The notes beneath the pieces were generated by a model. The model made no database searches. It was not told the DNA's origin and was given only the letters and a program-made list of their open reading frames with translations. From positions 558,001 through 622,000 of the forward strand of contig NC_011891.1 of the NCBI RefSeq assembly GCF_000022145.1: a DNA stretch of 64,000 bases, read 5' to 3'. This DNA comes from Anaeromyxobacter dehalogenans 2CP-1. GTDB taxonomy: Bacteria > Myxococcota > Myxococcia > Myxococcales > Anaeromyxobacteraceae. Each line of letters opens with the position of its first letter. The stretch's first letter is position 1. The translations under genes were made by a program, and so were the position numbers. Positions 1,151 through 17,250 of the stretch are shown here, one piece after another.

Positions 1151-1819
1151 ATGGCCCGCGTCCCCAGGTTCGCGCTCGTCGAGCGCGATTCGTCAAATCA
1201 CTGCACCTGGCGGGCGCACGATCTCGAGTTCGTCTTCGAGGAGCCGGGCGCGCGCGACGAGTTCCTGGAACTCCTGGGTCGGTACAAGGAGCGCTACGGC
1301 GTCGAGATCCGGTCGTACTGCCTGATGGGCACCCACCCGCACGTCACCTGCACGTGCCGCCAGGAGCAGGCGCAGTTCAGCCGCTTCTGGCAGGTCGTGA
1401 ACGGGCAGTTCGCGCGCTGGTACAACAAGGTGAGGAACCGACGCGGTCAGGTCGTGATGGAGCGGATGCGCACGCCACGCATCCAGGAGGGCGGCGCGCA
1501 TCAGCTCACCGTGATGCGGTACGGCGACCTGAACCCGGTGCGCGCCGGGCTCGTGAAGAGTCCAAAGGACTGGAAGTGGTCGAGCTACCGGCACTATGCG
1601 TTCGGCGAGCCGAACCCACTCATCACCGACGCGCCGGAGTACCTTGCGCTCGGGAAGACGGCTCCGGAGCGCCGAAAGGCTTACCAGACGCTGTTCGCGT
1701 TGCCGTTATCCGAGTCGCTTCGCACGCGGCGCGTAGAGCTCGTCAGCTTCCCTTTCGTCGGCGACGCGAGCTGGGTGAGGCGCCGACTCGAGCTCGCAGG
1801 GCTTTCGCCACCGGACTGA
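1151..1819 (+). CDS. RAYT-type Y1 (HUH) transposase, IS200-like fold
   Basis: The 222-aa protein matches the REP-associated tyrosine transposase layout: an N-terminal strand (SSNHCTWRAHDLEFVF), the metal-binding segment SYCLMGTHPHV, and the helix RYGDLNPVRAGLV followed by WSSYRHYA, which carries the likely catalytic Tyr (Y1) and the NPVRA signature. The HUH pair appears as H-P-H, with Pro in the middle position. Length fits a domestic single-copy RAYT rather than an insertion sequence with paired ends; no terminal inverted repeats or target duplications were found around it. Inverted repeat-core copies sit just upstream and a direct array starts 1.3 kb downstream. The frame is intact, so the enzyme could be active. 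Confidence 0.85.
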   Translation: MARVPRFALVERDSSNHCTWRAHDLEFVFEEPGARDEFLELLGRYKERYGVEIRSYCLMGTHPHVTCTCRQEQAQFSRFWQVVNGQFARWYNKVRNRRGQVVMERMRTPRIQEGGAHQLTVMRYGDLNPVRAGLVKSPKDWKWSSYRHYAFGEPNPLITDAPEYLALGKTAPERRKAYQTLFALPLSESLRTRRVELVSFPFVGDASWVRRRLELAGLSPPD

Positions 1820-1921: not shown

Positions 1922-2278
1922 TCATCCCCTCAGCTCTAGATAGAGGCCCGCGGCGAACACGGCGAAGCCCGCCAGCGCGAGGACGGCCCCGAACGCGGCC
2001 GACCAGGCCGCCGACCAGCGGATCATGCCAGCCCAGCTCCTCGCGTCGCGAGGTACCCATGCCGTGTGGGGCGGCACTCCGCGTGCCTCCAGGTTGCGCC
2101 GCCGCTCCTCGGTCGTGTCGACGGGATCACGAAATGCGCGCACACTGGTCCGGAATACAGCGACGCCAATGGCGGCGACGACGCCGCCGAGGAGCACGAG
2201 CTTCCCCGCCTGCTGCTCCAACGTCACGTTCCGCCTCGCGCGCTCGACATGTCTCGTCTCTTCGTGGATCCGCGGCAC
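1922..2278 (-). CDS. Small two-helix membrane protein, hypothetical
   Basis: 118 aa from a GTG at 2278, without a strong ribosome site. Two hydrophobic spans are visible, around residues 27-44 and 88-112, joined by a charged loop rich in Arg and Glu, with a basic N-terminus. The product is probably a small inner-membrane protein with both ends in the cytoplasm. No family is recognised. It converges on the transposase gene and its start region is shared with the leader of the permease at 2481. An upstream alternative start cannot be excluded. Confidence 0.5.
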   Translation of the reverse strand: MPRIHEETRHVERARRNVTLEQQAGKLVLLGGVVAAIGVAVFRTSVRAFRDPVDTTEERRRNLEARGVPPHTAWVPRDARSWAGMIRWSAAWSAAFGAVLALAGFAVFAAGLYLELRG

Positions 2279-2480
2279 CGCCGCCGGGGAGACGCCATCA
2301 TACGCCGAGTGCAGAGGCTCTCGCCGTGAGCCGGCTGCGGCAGGGATGCGCCGAGACGATGGAATAGCCAGCGCCTATCAACTAGCTGGGAACGATGTAT
2401 TGGTGGCCATCCTCACCCCCGCGCATCCTCCATGTGTCCCCGCGGGCCCGACGGCCTGTGTGGACGAGCGGAGGAACCCG

Positions 2481-3080
2481 ATGACCGTCGCCCTCACCGC
2501 CGCAGGCTTCGGCGCGCTGCACGCCGTCTCCGGCCCCGACCACCTACTCAGCCTGGCGCCGCTCTCGCTGGGGCAAGGGCGCCGGGCCTGGCGCATCGGA
2601 TTGCAGTGGGGACTCGGGCACGCCGCCGGCACGGCCTTTGCCGCGGCGGTGCTGCTCGCGGTCCTGTCCGGCGCCGGGCTGCACGTGGTGGACGCCTGGG
2701 CCGAACGCGCGGCCGGCCTGGCGCTCGTGGCGATGGGCGCGGCGAACCTCGTGGCGCTCCACCGCGGGCGAGGGATGGCAGCGGGCGGGACGCGTGGGGG
2801 ACGCCGGGCGGTCTTCTCGGTCGGCCTCGTGCACGGGGTCACCGGCGCGGCCGCGCTGCTGCTGCTCCTCCCCGCCGCGCAAGCGGGCGCGCCGGTGAAG
2901 GCGCTCGCCCTGGCCGGGTTCGTCGCGGGCAGCACGGCCGCCATGGTCGCGGTTACCGCGGCTATCGCCGCGCTCTCCGCGGCGGCCGCGCCCCGGCTCG
3001 CGCTCGCCACCCGGCGACTCCCGGCGCTCGCCTCCGCCGTCTCGGTGGCGGTCGGGATCGCCTGGACGATCGCGGGCTGA
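2481..3080 (+). CDS. NicO/UreH-like nickel/cobalt permease family membrane protein
   Basis: 199 aa starting at an ATG preceded by GGAGGAA at ideal distance. About six hydrophobic spans are visible. The first carries HAVSGPDHL and is followed by GLGHAAGT; the fourth begins with GLVHGVTGAAAL. Conserved His/Asp residues in the first helices are the hallmark of the NicO/UreH group of nickel and cobalt transporters. Specificity cannot be read from sequence, but nickel is plausible given the hydrogenase and LarA genes nearby. The TGA stop (3078-3080) is also the first three bases of the first unit of the repeat array. The 3' half of the gene (from 2732) is duplicated downstream. Confidence 0.75.
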   Translation: MTVALTAAGFGALHAVSGPDHLLSLAPLSLGQGRRAWRIGLQWGLGHAAGTAFAAAVLLAVLSGAGLHVVDAWAERAAGLALVAMGAANLVALHRGRGMAAGGTRGGRRAVFSVGLVHGVTGAAALLLLLPAAQAGAPVKALALAGFVAGSTAAMVAVTAAIAALSAAAAPRLALATRRLPALASAVSVAVGIAWTIAG

Positions 3081-3340
3081 CTCCGGCACCTAGGCGCACC
3101 ATCGGTTTGCGGTGCCGTAGGCGGCCTGACTCCGGCACCGTCATCCCGCGGGCGCTGACTCCGGCACCCTCGGCTCCATCGGCCCGCGGCCGCGGCTGAC
3201 TCCGGCACCATCGGCACGGCTGACTTCGGCACCATCGGCATCGCCATCGGCCATCGGGCTGACTCCGGCTCCATCGGCTCGCGGCACCATCGCATCGGCC
3301 ATCGGCGCTCCGCTCCGGCTGACTCCGGCACCATCGCCAC

Positions 3341-3692
3341 GATGGGCGCGGCGAACCTGGTGGCGCTCCGCCGCGGGAGGACCGTGGCCGCGGGACTCGC
3401 CGCGAGCGGCGCGCGCCGGGCGGTGTTCTCGGTGGGCCTGGTGCACGGGATCACAGGCGCTGCCGCGCTGCTGCTCCTCCTCCCGGCGGCGCACGCGAGC
3501 GCGCCGGTGAAGGCGCTCGCCCTCGCCGGCTTCGCCGCGGGCAGCACGGCCGCCATGGCCGCGCTCACCGCGGGCATCGCCGCGCTCTCCGCCGCGGCCG
3601 CGCCCCGGCTCGCGCTCGCCACCTGGCGGCTCCCCGCGCTCGCCTCGGCCGCCTCGGTGGCTGTCGGAATCGGCTGGGCGGTCGCGGCCTGA
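3341..3692 (+). pseudogene. Duplicated 3' half of the NicO-like permease gene (truncated copy)
   Basis: Bases 3341-3692 repeat the permease gene from 2732 to its stop: both begin GATGGGCGCGGCGAACCT and encode MGAANLVAL, GLVHG(V/I)TGAAAL, PVKALALAGF and PALAS(A)VSVAVGI-type segments through to the stop. The copy keeps an open frame of 116 codons from an internal ATG but lacks the first 84 codons, which include the HAVSGPDHL and GHAAGT metal-binding helices, and it has no ribosome site. It has diverged by scattered substitutions, mostly conservative, so the duplication is not brand new. A functional half-transporter cannot be ruled out, but a broken paralogue is likelier. Confidence 0.8.
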
Positions 3693-3710
3693 CTCCGGCA
3701 CCGTCGGCCG

Positions 3711-3826
3711 CTCCGCCGCGGCCGCGCCCCGGCTCGCGCTCGCCACCTGGCGGCTCCCCGCGCTCGCCTCGGCCGCCTCGGTGGCTGTCGGAATCGGCTG
3801 GGCGGTCGCGGCCTGACTCCGGCACC
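3711..3826 (+). repeat. Third, exact partial copy of the permease 3' end
   Basis: Bases 3711-3826 are identical to 3587-3702, an offset of 124 nt. The copy spans the last 34 codons of the truncated permease fragment plus its stop and the attached TGACTCCGGCACC unit. Exact identity shows that this step is recent, or is held by gene conversion. The unit ends inside a motif copy at both ends, as expected if recombination or slippage between motif copies created it. Confidence 0.9.
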
Positions 3827-3981
3827 ATCGGCGCGCTCCTCGGCCGTCAGCTGACTCCGGCACCGTCGGCCGGCCTGACTCCGGCACCGTCGGCCGCCGG
3901 CACCGCCCGCTCCTCGGCCGTCAGCTGACTCCGGCACCGTCGGCCCCGTCGGCCCGGCAGCGCGGTCGTGACTCCGGCACC

Positions 3982-4299
3982 GTCGGCCGCCGTCGGCCGA
4001 ACCTGTGAACGCGGCAGCGCCGCGCGCGCCGGCCGAACGGGCGCCGCGGGTTCGCCGACAGTGACGACCCCGGCGACCAGCCAGCCGGCCGAGCGGGCGT
4101 TCTCGACCGCACCGGTCGGTCTTTGACGCGGCGAGGCAAAAGGGCCGCTCCCTCTTGCTCCGGCGCGCCGACCTTGTCACACTTCTGCTCCTTTTTTCCT
4201 GGGCGGGGTCCGCGCAGCGCGCTGCTCGATCCGAGCGCGCTGCGGCGGTTCCGCGCAGGGCCGCAGTCGACGCCAGCCACCTCCTGGAGGTCCGTGCCC
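3982..4299. other. Leader region of the carboxylase operon
   Basis: About 320 bp between the repeat array and the carboxylase start. I see no gene. It contains a pyrimidine-rich run (CTCCTTTTTTCC near 4190) and a TTGACG at 4124, but no convincing -10 element at the right distance, so the promoter is not assigned. Confidence 0.4.
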
Positions 4300-6024
4300 G
4301 TGACCACGAAGGCGATCATCCCGACCCTGACGAACCCGCTCGATCCGCCCGAGAAGGTGGAGTTCACCATCCCCGGCGAGATCGCCAGGGCCACCGGCGG
4401 CTACGAGGAGGCCATGAAGGAGGGCTGGGAGCTCATCCAGCGTCCCATCCGCTCGGTCCCGGTCGATCAGATCGAGAAGCAGCACATCAAGAAGCGCATG
4501 ACGGTGTGGGAGCGGATCCGCGTCCTCTCGGACAAGGAGCCGATGGTCCTGTACCAGAACTGGGGCAAGAACCTCGACGGCGCCTCGCTCGTCACCGCCG
4601 TCCTGAACATCGGCGGCCGCGACGTCGCGGTGTACGGGCACGACTTCACCGTCCGCGCCGGCTCGATGGACGCGACCAACGGCTCGAAGCTGGCGCGCCT
4701 GTTCCGCATGGCCGGCGAGAAGGGGATCCCGCTCATCGGCATGAACGACTCGGCCGGCGCCTACGTGCCGGCGGGCGTGGGCGGCCTCGACGGCTACGCC
4801 GAGGCGTTCACCGCGCTGCGCCGGATCAGCGGCGTGGTCCCGTCGATCATGTGCATGTTCGGCTTCAACGCCGGCGGCGGCTCCTACCTGCCGCGCCAGG
4901 GCAGCTTCGTGATCCAGCCTGCCGACACGTTCTTCGGCCTCACCGGCCCGGGCGTGGTGAAGTCGGTGCTGGGCGAGGAGATCTCGCCGGAGGACCTGGG
5001 CGGTCCCAAGGTGCACGGCGCCTCGGGCGTGGCCGACCTCACCGTCATCGACGAGCTCGCCGCGCTCCGCCAGGCGGTGCGCCTGCTGAACTACGTCCCG
5101 GACAACAACCGGACGATGGCGCCGTTCCAGGAGACGAGCGACCCGCTCGATCGCAAGACCTGGGAGATCAACACGCTGCTGAAGAAGGCGTTCAACTCGC
5201 CGACGGGCTTCAACACGCCGTTCGACGTGTCGATCATCATCCAGCAGGTCTGCGACTACGGTGACTTCTTCGAGATCCAGCCGGAGCGCGCGCGCGAGGT
5301 GGTCACCGCGTTCGGCCGCCTGGGCGGCCACGTGGTCGGCTTCGTCGCGAACAACAGCGCCATCGGCTCCGGCCAGATCGACTGCGACACCGCGCTGAAG
5401 ATCGCGAGGTTCGTGCGCTTCTGCAACGTCTACAACATCCCCATCATCTTCATGGAGGACACCACCGGCTTCCTCCCCGGGCGCGAGCAGGAGGCGCGCG
5501 GCATCGTGCAGGCCGGCCGCTCCATGCTCGACGCGATCGTGGACGTCCGCACGCCGCGCATCCTGCTCATCCTGCGCAACGCGTTCGGCGGCGCCTACGC
5601 CTCGTACAACAACTACCCGACCGGCGCCGACGTGGTGCTGGCGCTCCCCACCACGCGGCTCGCGGTGATGGGGCCGGCCGGCAAGGAGTTCGTCTACAAG
5701 GACGAGCTCCGCAAGATGCGCAGCGCCGCCGCCGAGCGCGCCAAGAAGGGCGCGCAGCAGCGCGTGGCCGCGGGCATGGAGGGCGAGGCCGCCCGCAAGG
5801 ACGCCGAGAAGGAGGCGGCCGAGTGGCTCAAGGGCGAGGAGGCCGCGCTGGGCCGCCGCTACGAGAAGGAGCTGATGAACCCGAAGGAAGGCCTGGCGCT
5901 CGGGTCGATCTCGTCGCTGGTCATGCCGACCGACCTCCGCAAGGTGCTCGGCCAGAACCTGCACTTCCTGCTCCGCCACTACACGCCGTCGCCGATGAGC
6001 GGCCCGCAGCGCGAGTTCCACTAG
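4300..6024 (+). CDS. Acyl-CoA carboxylase, carboxyltransferase (beta) subunit
   Basis: 574 aa from GTG 4300 (GGAGG 9 nt upstream; a GTG at 4294 in the same frame is too close to that site). It carries both crotonase-fold halves of the carboxyltransferase family. The N-half has [22 protein letters not shown] and [17 protein letters not shown]. The C-half has [17 protein letters not shown] and [14 protein letters not shown], the acyl-CoA and carboxybiotin pockets. A helical, charged insertion (residues about 470-525) precedes the last strand. It moves CO2 from carboxybiotin to an acyl-CoA, and the biotin carboxylase/carrier partner follows 40 nt downstream. Propionyl-, acetyl- or another acyl-CoA is possible; the related glutaconyl-CoA decarboxylase alpha subunit is less likely beside a biotin carboxylase. 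Confidence 0.85.
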
Positions 6025-6064
6025 GCCCCGCGCACCGGACCCGAGACCCGGAGAACCGAACGAC

Positions 6065-9043
6065 ATGGCTTCCAACGTCGACCACTACCGGAACAACCCG
6101 CTCATCCACCGCGACCGCCGCCTGGGCAGCTCGCCCTCGGCCTGGGTGCGCTCCTTCGCCTGCGAGGACCTGAAGCCGCTCATCGTGTGCCGCGGCCCCA
6201 TCCGCAAGGAGGCGATGGACGTCTTCGCCGAGATGGGCATCACGCACGTCGGCATCCTGCTCTCCGAGAAGGACTCGATCGTCTACGCCAACGCGCTCGC
6301 CCCCGAGCTGCGCCAGCTCGCGAACCACGACCGCGTCCACCGCGTGCCGGATTACACCGGCGCCACGAAGGAGGAGCGCGTCGAGCGGATGAACCAGATC
6401 GTCCAGATCGCGCTCGACAACGGGTACGACTCCATCTTCGCCGGTTACGGCTTCATGGCCGAGGACGAGGAGTTCGTCGCCACCGTCGAGCGGGCCGGCC
6501 TGAAGTTCATCGGCCCGAACTCGACCACGCAGGCGCGCGCCGGCAAGAAGGACGAGGCGAAGCGCACCGCGCTGGAGGTGAAGGTCAGCGTCACGCCGGG
6601 CGTGAACGACGTGGCGGCCCGCACGCTGCTCGCGAAGCACAGGACCCGCAAGCAGCTCCTCGCGCTGGTGGAGGCGGAGGGCCTCGCCTGCGACGCGAAG
6701 GTGCTGGCGGACGAGAAGGTGGAGCTCCCGGTGCTCGCCGAGCACGTGCTCCAGGCGTCCTACGCCAGGGGGCTCGACCTCTTCACCATCGACGAGCTGG
6801 GCGCGCAGGTCCAGGTCGAGGTGGCGGAGATGTTCCGGAAGTACCCGCGCAGCCGCGTGCGCCTGAAGGCCATCGGCGGCGGCGGCGGCAAGGGCCAGCG
6901 CATCCTGGGCGCCTCGCTGCTCACCGCGAAGGCCGCCGACGAGAAGGCCGTCGCGGCGGCCGCGGCCGAAGCGCCCGCGATGGTGCGCGAGGTGCTGAGC
7001 GAGGTGAAGGCCACCGGCGTCGGCGACAACAAGAACGTCCTCATCGAGCTGAACATCGAGCAGACGCGGCACAACGAGATCCAGCTCCTCGGCAACGGGG
7101 AGTGGTGCGTCTCGCTGGGCGGCCGCGACTGCTCGCTGCAGATGCACGAGCAGAAGCTGCTCGAGGTCTCCGTCACGCAGGAGGCGCTCGCCGCCACCAT
7201 CGCGCGCGCCGCCAACAACGGGAAGACCGCCCGCGCCAAGGCGCTGGCGGTGGACCTCGAGATCCTGAAGCGGATGGAGGACGACGCCGCGCGCTTCGGC
7301 CAGGCGGTGGGGCTCGACTCCGCCTCCACCTTCGAGTGCATCGTCGATCGCGACCGCTACTACTTCATGGAGGTCAACACCCGGATCCAGGTGGAGCACC
7401 GGGTCTCCGAGCTCTGCTACTCGCTCGAGTTCGCGAACCCCGACGACCCGAGCGACACGTTCGTGGTCGAGTCGCTGGTCGAGGCCATGGCGCTGCTGGC
7501 GCGCCACAAGAAGCGCCTGCCCAAGCCCCGCCGCATCCCGCGCTTCGGCGCGGCGGTGGAGGCCCGCCTCAACGCCACCGACGCCTCGCTGTCGCCGCAC
7601 GCGGGCGGCGTGATCCGCTACTGGTCGAAGCCCATCGAGGGCGAGATCCGGGACGACCAGGGCATCAGCATGCCCAACCCCGACACCCGCATGTTCATGC
7701 GGTACAAGGTGGCCGGCGCGTACGACTCGAACATCGCGCTGCTGCTCACCAAGGGCGACCGGCGGCTGGAGAGCTACAAGCACATGGCGCGCGTGCTGGC
7801 GCGCATGGAGCTGCGCGGCACCACGCTCGCCACCAACATGGAGTTCCACTACGGCCTGGTGAACTGGTTCCTGGGCCAGAGCGTGAACGCCAAGCCGACC
7901 ACGCGCTTCGTGGTGCCCTACCTCACGCTGGTGGGCATGCTGAAGGACGAGGCGAACAAGCTCGACACCGCCTACGCCTTCGCCGAGATGAAGAAGCACT
8001 ACGCGAAGCTGATGGCGACCGAGAACCCGGGCGACGCGGCCGCGCAGAAGGCCATGACGGACGTGCTCGACCGCAAGGTGACGCTGCTCACCCGCGTGAT
8101 CGACCGCTTCCTCGACGACCCGCACCTGTTCGCCGGCTGGCTGAGCATGAACCGCCGCCACTACCGGATCGAGAACGGGAAGCTGCTCTGGATCCGGAAC
8201 CCGCTGGGCGTGCTCAACGACGCCTACGCCTACCTGAACATGGCGTTCCACCCGCGGCGGCCCGCGTCGCAGGTGATGTGGGAGCACGACCACGAGCTGC
8301 TGACGAAGTCGCTGCGCTTCTACGTGGCGCTGCGCGAGCGCTTCGGCCTGAAGCGCGAGGAGTACTACAAGCTCAACGAGATCCTGCAGAAGGAGGAGCC
8401 GCAGGACGGCTTCGACGCCGAGACCTGGACGAGGATCCGCTCCGCCCACCTCGGCTACGAGGCGGGCAACGAGCTGCTCGGCCTGCTGTTCATGGTGGCG
8501 GAGTCGGTGCGCTTCTTCGACTTCAAGGTGGAGGACGACCTCGAGGTCACGATTCCCGAGCACCTGCACGATCCCGAACTGCAGGCGCGCATGAAGAAGG
8601 TGCTGTGCCCGCCGCCGGCCACCAAGGCGGACGAGCTGGTGGCGCCGTTCGGCGGCATGTTCTACCGGCAGGAGGCGCCGGGGCGGCCGCCGTTCGTCGA
8701 GGAGGGCCAGCACTTCGAGAAGGGGCAGCCGCTCTACATCATCGAGGTGATGAAGATGTTCAACACGGTGCGCGCGCCGTTCTCCGGGACCATCGAGAAG
8801 GTCCTGATGCAGGGCGCGGACGGCACCGTGGTGCAGAAGGGTCAGCCGCTCTTCAAGATCACGCCGGACGAGAAGTTCGTCCCGGTGGACCCGAAGGCGG
8901 TCGAGCGCGAGCGGCGCACCCGCACCCAGAAGCACCTCGAGGGTGTGCTGATGACGTTCGCCGAGAAGTTCACCACCGTCGAGCCCGTCCGGTTCGAGGA
9001 GCCGGAGGAGGAGGTGGCCTGGGCCGGGGTAGAGGCGGTCTAG
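6065..9043 (+). CDS. Biotin carboxylase plus biotin carrier fusion subunit of acyl-CoA carboxylase
   Basis: 992 aa. The N-terminal biotin carboxylase domain has the ATP-grasp glycine loop KAIGGGGGKG near residue 268 and the catalytic EVNTRIQVEHRVSE near 440. It ends in a biotinyl domain with EVMKM (target Lys about 897) followed by a charged tail. It is unusual in carrying roughly 75 extra residues between the first subdomain (ending near KKDEAKR, residue 165) and the glycine loop, and a long linker (about 530-850) between carboxylase and carrier regions. It carboxylates biotin with ATP and bicarbonate for the transferase encoded just upstream. The two genes form an operon ending at the hairpin at 9069. 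Confidence 0.85.
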   Translation: MASNVDHYRNNPLIHRDRRLGSSPSAWVRSFACEDLKPLIVCRGPIRKEAMDVFAEMGITHVGILLSEKDSIVYANALAPELRQLANHDRVHRVPDYTGATKEERVERMNQIVQIALDNGYDSIFAGYGFMAEDEEFVATVERAGLKFIGPNSTTQARAGKKDEAKRTALEVKVSVTPGVNDVAARTLLAKHRTRKQLLALVEAEGLACDAKVLADEKVELPVLAEHVLQASYARGLDLFTIDELGAQVQVEVAEMFRKYPRSRVRLKAIGGGGGKGQRILGASLLTAKAADEKAVAAAAAEAPAMVREVLSEVKATGVGDNKNVLIELNIEQTRHNEIQLLGNGEWCVSLGGRDCSLQMHEQKLLEVSVTQEALAATIARAANNGKTARAKALAVDLEILKRMEDDAARFGQAVGLDSASTFECIVDRDRYYFMEVNTRIQVEHRVSELCYSLEFANPDDPSDTFVVESLVEAMALLARHKKRLPKPRRIPRFGAAVEARLNATDASLSPHAGGVIRYWSKPIEGEIRDDQGISMPNPDTRMFMRYKVAGAYDSNIALLLTKGDRRLESYKHMARVLARMELRGTTLATNMEFHYGLVNWFLGQSVNAKPTTRFVVPYLTLVGMLKDEANKLDTAYAFAEMKKHYAKLMATENPGDAAAQKAMTDVLDRKVTLLTRVIDRFLDDPHLFAGWLSMNRRHYRIENGKLLWIRNPLGVLNDAYAYLNMAFHPRRPASQVMWEHDHELLTKSLRFYVALRERFGLKREEYYKLNEILQKEEPQDGFDAETWTRIRSAHLGYEAGNELLGLLFMVAESVRFFDFKVEDDLEVTIPEHLHDPELQARMKKVLCPPPATKADELVAPFGGMFYRQEAPGRPPFVEEGQHFEKGQPLYIIEVMKMFNTVRAPFSGTIEKVLMQGADGTVVQKGQPLFKITPDEKFVPVDPKAVERERRTRTQKHLEGVLMTFAEKFTTVEPVRFEEPEEEVAWAGVEAV

Positions 9044-16395: not shown

Positions 16396-17250
16396 CTAGT
16401 GCCGGTGCCCGTGATCGTGGCCGTGGCCGTGATCGTGGCCGTGGCCGTGATCGTGGGTGTGCTCGGCGGCGTGGGTGTGCTCGGCGGCGTGGTCGTCCGC
16501 GTGCGTGTGATCGTGCCCGTGCCCGTGCTCGTGCGTGTGCGACCGCGCGTGCGCTGGCCTCAGGATGGGCCGCCGCAGCTCCTCCAGCCACGCGATCCAG
16601 CGGTCCATGCCCTCGCCCGTGCGAGCGGACAGCTCGATCACCTTCGCGGTCGGCATGACGTGCGCGATGGCGTCGCGGAGCTTCGGGAGATCCACGTCGA
16701 GGTGGGGGACGAGGTCCACCTTGCTGACCAGCACCAGGTCCGCCGCCTTGAACATCACCGGGTACTTGAGCGGCTTGTCCTCGCCCTCGGTGACCGAGAG
16801 CACCACCACGTTCGCCGCCTGGCCCAGGTCGTAGATGGCCGGGCACACCAGGTTGCCGACGTTCTCGATGAAGAAGACGTCGGTGTCGCGCCAGGGGAAG
16901 TCGTGCAGGCTGCGGTGCACGAGCTCGGCGTCGAGGTGGCACGCCTGGCCGGTGGTGATCGCCTTCGACGGGATGCCCGCCTTCTCGAGCCGGCGCGCGT
17001 CGTTGTCGGTGGCGAGGTCGGCGGACACCGCGCCGAGCTTCCAGCCCTTCGACGCCGCGGCCTTCGCGGTCGCCTCGAGCACGCCGGTCTTTCCGGCGCC
17101 GGGCGAGCCCATGATGTTGAGCGCCAGGACGCCGGCCTCGAGGAAGTGCTCCCGGTTGTGGCGGGCGGCGCGATCGTTGCCGGCCAGGATCTTCTCGTGC
17201 AGCTCCACCGGGACGAGCTCGGGGTCACCGCAGCCGCAGGTCGTGCACAT
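16396..17250 (-). CDS. hypB: Hydrogenase/urease nickel-insertion GTPase HypB with C-terminal His tail
   Basis: 284 aa. The extreme N-terminus MCTTCGCG carries the CxxCGC high-affinity metal site. The SIMIBI GTPase follows: P-loop GSPGAGKTG, switch region with TTGQACHLD, ENVGNLVCP and SKVDL. The last ~50 residues contain more than 20 histidines in HGHDH and AEHTH repeats; in many HypB proteins such a stretch lies between the N-terminal Cys motif and the GTPase, so its C-terminal place here is unusual. It loads Ni2+ into the hydrogenase large subunit with HypA. Its ATG overlaps the hypA stop (TGATG), so the pair is translationally coupled. It is the last gene of the leftward hyp operon. Confidence 0.95.
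   Translation of the reverse strand: MCTTCGCGDPELVPVELHEKILAGNDRAARHNREHFLEAGVLALNIMGSPGAGKTGVLEATAKAAASKGWKLGAVSADLATDNDARRLEKAGIPSKAITTGQACHLDAELVHRSLHDFPWRDTDVFFIENVGNLVCPAIYDLGQAANVVVLSVTEGEDKPLKYPVMFKAADLVLVSKVDLVPHLDVDLPKLRDAIAHVMPTAKVIELSARTGEGMDRWIAWLEELRRPILRPAHARSHTHEHGHGHDHTHADDHAAEHTHAAEHTHDHGHGHDHGHGHDHGHRH

Follow-up and report, generated by a model that had tools for sequence, protein, structure and literature searches.

The array of TGACTCCGGCACC motifs beside a tyrosine transposase gene of Anaeromyxobacter dehalogenans 2CP-1 probably belongs to a set of terminal-repeat arrays at the locus of a RAYT-type Y1 transposase, and probably grew by nicking at a fixed distance 3' of a conserved core and by duplications whose right end is fixed and whose left end is random. 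The array lies in a stretch of 64,000 nucleotides, hereafter the window, that covers positions 558,001-622,000 of the genome's single contig (5,029,329 bp).

Organization of the array

Between 3078 and 3981 the plus strand of the window carries 13 copies of TGACTCCGGCACC, 11 exact and two with one mismatch (TGACTTCGGCACC at 3221 and TGACTCCGGCTCC at 3260), a number and an irregular spacing that the original prediction had given correctly; the spacing ranges from 24 to 370 bp. At up to 2 mismatches the window holds 20 matches, against 3.4 expected and a maximum of 8 in 100 shuffles. The array spans 3078-3997, and behind each of its cores comes a ~7-nt tail (CATCGGC, CGTCGGC or a variant of these) that gives way to differing filler. 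Core 1 (3078-3090) overlaps the stop codon of a HupE/UreJ-like permease gene (2481-3080, plus strand; Pfam HupE_UreJ_2, E=6e-5, just under gathering), and cores 2 to 6 follow at 3127-3139, 3156-3168, 3197-3209, 3221-3233 and 3260-3272, the last two being the one-mismatch copies. At core 7 (3320-3332, tail to 3338) the array is joined by a duplicated 3' fragment of the permease together with core 8 (3340-3702, plus strand; ~360 bp, 86% identical to 2731-3090), whose left junction falls 7-8 nt past the CAC of core 7. A second, later duplication of the permease 3' end (3709-3826, plus strand), which is recent, copies the end of the first fragment as a unit of ~124 bp with core 9, and its left junction falls 7-9 nt past the CAC of core 8. 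Cores 10 to 13 are at 3852-3864, 3876-3888, 3926-3938 and 3969-3981, all on the plus strand. Upstream of the transposase gene two outward cores occupy the minus strand, GGACTCCGGCACC at 960-972 and GAACTCCGGCACC at 998-1010, both missed by the original prediction; the former is found at the same place in relative genome G001, which we take to be A. dehalogenans strain 2CP-C, and is degenerate in Anaeromyxobacter sp. PSR-1 (G006).

The permease TGA (3078-3080) forms the first three bases of core 1, an overlap shared by PSR-1 and also by 2CP-C, where the core has decayed, and the TGAs at 3690 and 3814 end the two duplicated permease fragments. These coincidences had been read as anchoring of the array at stop codons. 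The three themselves hold, the latter two because the duplicated pieces bring the permease stop along with the motif, but none of the other ten cores lies on the stop of an annotated-looking gene. A stop codon as anchor is peculiar to this one locus: the other arrays lie off stops, and the core of other lineages has no TGA. As a general rule stop-codon anchoring is ruled out by the arrays that are not on stops, and we regard the overlap as incidental.

Divergence from 2CP-C peaks locally around the array, with 84% identity at 1922-3234 (permease), 93% at 3711-6996 and 96% in the leftmost 187 bp of the window. Elsewhere in the window, at 16405-16540, are GC-rich 18-bp tandem repeats, GTGGCCGTGATCGTGGCC and CGTGGGTGTGCTCGGCGG, which have no relation to the core.

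The transposase

The gene between the two sets of outward cores (1151-1819, plus strand) encodes a 222-residue protein with H62-P-H64 and Y124 (YGDLNP). It matches NCBIfam REP_Tyr_transpos with E=3.4e-14, below that model's curated cut-off, and Pfam Y1_Tnp just above gathering, and its profile match to E. coli TnpAREP (PDB 4er8) has E=5e-4. The AlphaFold2 model (pLDDT 88), helical in its C-terminal part, finds 4er8 as its best Foldseek match (E=1.7e-6), followed by the IS200, IS608 and ISDra2 transposases. Across an alignment of 23 homologues H62, H64, Y124, N128 and P129 are invariant; all 23 match NF047646, for which the window's protein scores under the curated cut-off (52.9 vs 80 bits). 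The HUH histidines, the single tyrosine and the predicted Y1 fold identify the window gene as a Y1/HUH transposase of the RAYT/TnpAREP branch. Strain orthologues show dN/dS of 0.09-0.12, that is, strong purifying selection. The W/Q pair that serves the classical TnpAREP near GTAG (PMC6006769) is not conserved among the 23 homologues. The only other close copy of the transposase in the genome is at 1,225,098 (84% identity).

Distribution of cores and transposases

Genome-wide there are 23 exact copies of the 13-mer, all of them within three arrays: at 549.3 kb (minus strand), 9.5 kb upstream of the window transposase; at 561.1 kb (plus strand), the array described above, just downstream of that gene; and at 1224.8 kb (minus strand), 126 bp from the second transposase copy. 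Absence of the motif elsewhere in the genome had been proposed as the mark of a purely local slippage event, an outcome that did not occur. Searching 2CP-1 for two neighboring CTCCGGCACC cores added only two places, 553.7 kb with an array and 558.96 kb with a pair directly upstream of the window transposase, and every paired core is within ~10 kb of one of the two transposase copies.

The same co-occurrence with the transposase is seen among relatives. Pairs of CTCCGGCACC number 20 in 2CP-1, 8 in 2CP-C, 10 in PSR-1 and 2 in A. oryzae Red232 (G002), with one in the 66% complete G007 and none in four near-complete Anaeromyxobacter genomes without a close transposase homologue (G003, G004, G005 and G008). 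In 2CP-C and PSR-1, which have the transposase, arrays occupy the same places as in 2CP-1 with different spacers, and copy number and tail vary between these close strains. Both pairs in A. oryzae are within 6 kb of its transposase homologue (56%). Overall, a homologue was found in 20 of 195 Myxococcota genomes, and the more distant ones are flanked by outward arrays of variant cores (GTCCGGCAC, CTCCGGCACC, GTCCGTCAC, TGCCCGGCAC). Outside Anaeromyxobacter, ten transposase-bearing genomes contain 70 pairs of GTCCGGCAC vs 1 in five genomes without the gene; as a control, the reversed pattern gives 5 pairs over all 24 genomes.

Orientation follows the same gene. Cores point outward on both sides, those upstream of the transposase lying on the strand opposite to it and those downstream on its own strand, around both copies in three strains and around many homologues; at 18 loci 148 copies of CCGGCACC face outward and 28 inward. 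Genome G047 also contains several arrays far from any detected transposase. Four contigs of G039 (C1, C8, C9 and C13; L129, L130, L132 and L131, respectively) start or stop within copies of the transposase gene, which suggests that the whole element recently multiplied in that genome. In the 2CP-1 genome, three copies of GTCCGGCAC with an 18-bp period at C1:518869-518913, ~40 kb from the transposase, are possibly a coding repeat.

A host gene also carries a core. The trehalose-phosphate synthase/phosphatase gene beside the 549-kb array ends in ...GVPESRAFLRGLL in all three strains, and GTGCCGGAGTCA within it is a reverse-strand core, in frame in the coding end (VPES; C1:549122-549134, L001:9122-9134). 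In species that lack the transposase this protein ends differently, with a C-terminus colinear with, for example, DVRAARAFL. The array may have been seeded by a chance core in the gene, or it may have written the core into it.

Fixed and ragged edges of the repeat unit

While the core is common within a transposase lineage, the tail differs from locus to locus: CATCGGC/CGTCGGC in the window, CCCGGCC at 549 kb, CAGGTCC at 1225 kb, and GCCTCCC, TCTGCCC, CGAGGCC and others in arrays elsewhere. Tails at one place can also differ between strains, and the arrays therefore turn over in place. Over 45 arrays, mean within-array identity 3' of the core is 0.71-0.94 at positions +1 to +7, 0.52 at +8, 0.37 at +9 and ~0.3 beyond. 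The unit thus has a sharp 3' edge ~7 nt after ...CCGGCAC, where position +7 is C in 37 of the 45 arrays, and on its left side identity fades gradually. Of 115 pairs of adjacent copies, 62 agree for 7-9 nt to the right of the core and 16 for that length to the left; counted per array, the right extension is found in 17 of 38 and the left in 1 of 38 (p=2e-5), orthologous arrays among those counted being not fully independent observations. Other edges than 7-9 nt occur in some arrays, namely array B of 2CP-1 and in A. oryzae.

Left ends, by contrast, are placed hundreds of bases upstream, inside the core or at its last bases. Left ends inside the core yield variants such as CTCCGGCAC after a C-ending tail, and those at its last bases yield tail-only repeats. 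Long duplications rejoin at +7 to +9 past the core, as in the window (~610 and 124 bp) and in G052, where the 150-bp duplicated piece extends into the transposase gene itself. The earlier suggestion of growth centered on a short sequence is in the main supported. The permease junctions in the window can be placed only within 1-2 nt because some of this duplicated sequence is old (86% identity). In G047, two almost identical copies of the transposase match up to the core and differ right past it. The tail may derive from the target or from the element, and its conservation could instead be a product of selection. We found no empty site, and the 546-562 kb region has no syntenic counterpart in Anaeromyxobacter genomes that lack the transposase; the permease, too, is absent from those genomes.

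A fixed edge is also seen around independent, only distantly related enzymes. These genomes encode further Y1 transposases at other places, with 27-30% identity to that of the window, and they are accompanied by outward arrays of GGTCGGGG (L007, L030, L013 and L032, distant Y1 transposases in Anaeromyxobacter), the core in full copies being ATTACTCTGGGTCGGGG. Their units close after a 4-nt tail (CCCC, CCTC, CCTT, TTCT or TCCT), and over seven arrays identity by position runs 0.90, 0.85, 0.90 and 1.00 before dropping to 0.24, placing the edge at +4/+5. Therefore a fixed edge belongs to more than one transposase lineage, at a distance specific to each. Y1 loci L018, L031, L020 and L014 have still other outward cores. 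Mixed edges are seen at other distant Y1 loci.

Proposed mechanism and alternatives

When HUH enzymes cleave single-stranded DNA, the products are a 3'-OH and a 5'-phosphotyrosine; for E. coli TnpAREP the cut falls after a C that adjoins the target (PMC8266576). From the position of the array edge in genome sequence, we infer a link to the site at which the enzyme cuts. The transposase would recognize the core in single-stranded DNA and cut ~7 nt 3' of it, usually after C, generating the 3'-OH and the 5'-phosphotyrosine. A strand that ends at the nick and starts at an arbitrary upstream point, either a released single-stranded piece or a re-copied 3' end, would then be rejoined there, so that a variable left part, the core and its 7-nt tail are inserted behind an existing tail. 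Repeated rounds would give irregularly spaced arrays in which the core stays constant and every locus has a tail of its own. A piece of a neighboring gene would sometimes be copied along, as may have happened twice to the permease here.

The array could also be the product of ordinary replication slippage and recombination in GC-rich DNA, a chance repeat having expanded locally with the transposase as bystander: tandem duplications of 24 to ~610 bp exist, and the tail-only micro-repeats resemble slippage. We consider this unlikely, and already disfavored, because one core recurs at unlinked loci and across several species, only in company with the transposase, is oriented outward, and has a fixed 3' edge beside a ragged 5' edge. 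A different reading takes the arrays as remains left passively while the transposase element repeatedly inserted, excised and decayed, that is, as solo ends that piled up rather than being made by a duplication reaction at the end. The homology between transposase copies is indeed bounded by the core, some arrays have no adjoining transposase, and the contig breaks of G039 within near-identical copies suggest that the element moves; but the units of an array have one locus-specific tail in common, which independent insertions would not yield, and gene fragments duplicated within an array rejoin at the same point, making such an origin quite improbable.

The original prediction had also raised a REP-like element, and this survives insofar as the motif has family members elsewhere in the genome and is tied to a REP-associated tyrosine transposase. 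Its stricter form, classical REP/BIME palindromic hairpins spread by the adjoining RAYT-family protein, is very improbable. Although a stem is possible in some single units, folding across the core yields no hairpin better than in controls with permuted flanks (-9.94 kcal/mol with the core's own flanks vs -9.76 with flanks swapped between arrays, 63 of 300 permutations being as low) that would correspond to the imperfect palindrome of 20-40 nt. The GTAG/GTGG foot is absent from core and flanks, and the W/Q residues that read GTAG are missing from the protein. Nor are the repeats dispersed or of high copy number, the 23 exact copies being confined to three clusters of this genome. Least probable of all is a selected regulatory element tied to stop codons, such as a terminator or a hairpin at mRNA ends: core 1 overlaps the stop of the permease in two strains, and in a third the core there has decayed, but the remaining arrays are found either upstream of the transposase or past a gene end without touching its stop, and copy number and tail vary among close strains.

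Fixed-distance nicking past the core thus stands as our preferred reading for the array. Whether it extends to RAYT-type transposases in general we can propose only tentatively: they may possess a second activity, a fixed-distance nick past their own terminal core that drives tandem duplications with fixed right and random left ends, building transposase-centered arrays with a lineage-specific core and a locus-private tail and at times duplicating parts of adjacent host genes, and at least two Y1 lineages far from each other would do so, with cuts at +7 and +4. The way in which RAYTs multiply their repeats and the reason that hosts retain RAYT genes have long been open questions. The sharp fixed-distance edge in dozens of arrays would be a natural cut-site footprint, legible from genomes alone, that yields a concrete biochemical prediction, and it would give a transposase a route to duplicate pieces of adjacent genes. 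In the literature searched we found no description of fixed-edge RAYT arrays.

Comparison with known systems

A CRISPR array had been discounted at the outset, correctly: the spacing is irregular, the spacers repeat the tail and no cas-like ORF was noticed near the window array. Closer comparison is with REPtrons, the TnpAREP/RAYT genes flanked by REPs in E. coli, Pseudomonas and Stenotrophomonas (PMC2817692, PMC8266576). As in REPtrons, a single-copy-type Y1/HUH transposase under purifying selection has short inverted repeats on either side, which are found at other places as well and lie between genes. Unlike REPs, the repeats here lack palindrome and GTAG, are few and massed near the transposase, and consist of a conserved core and a locus-specific tail with a fixed 3' edge.

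The fold and catalytic residues are shared with IS200/IS605 transposases (IS608, ISDra2), as would be, judging here from sequence, cleavage at a fixed place by a recognized end. In that family the ends are two same-strand hairpins, whereas here they are outward copies of one core, the tail sequence is free and arrays form.

TIRtrons, or TIRYTs, are RAYT-like genes between non-REP terminal inverted repeats (De Nocera et al. 2013, PMC3733652), and they correspond largely to subclass 2.1 of Quentin et al. 2018 (PMC6006769). The present locus has the same arrangement, a RAYT-like gene between inverted non-REP repeats, and TIRtron repeat families at times occur in dimers or clusters; the GGGG-rich cores at distant Anaeromyxobacter Y1 loci likewise recall GGGGWSAS. 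It differs in its fixed-3'-edge units and its GTCCGGCAC/CTCCGGCACC core family, neither of which appears in the descriptions consulted, and in a transposase with HPH rather than NHxH and with the tyrosine motif YGDLNP. These arrays appear to work like a RAYT/REP system, yet they are not palindromic dispersed REPs; given the outcome of the palindrome, GTAG-foot and dispersal tests and the fit to TIRtrons, we therefore name the feature a RAYT-linked terminal-core array.
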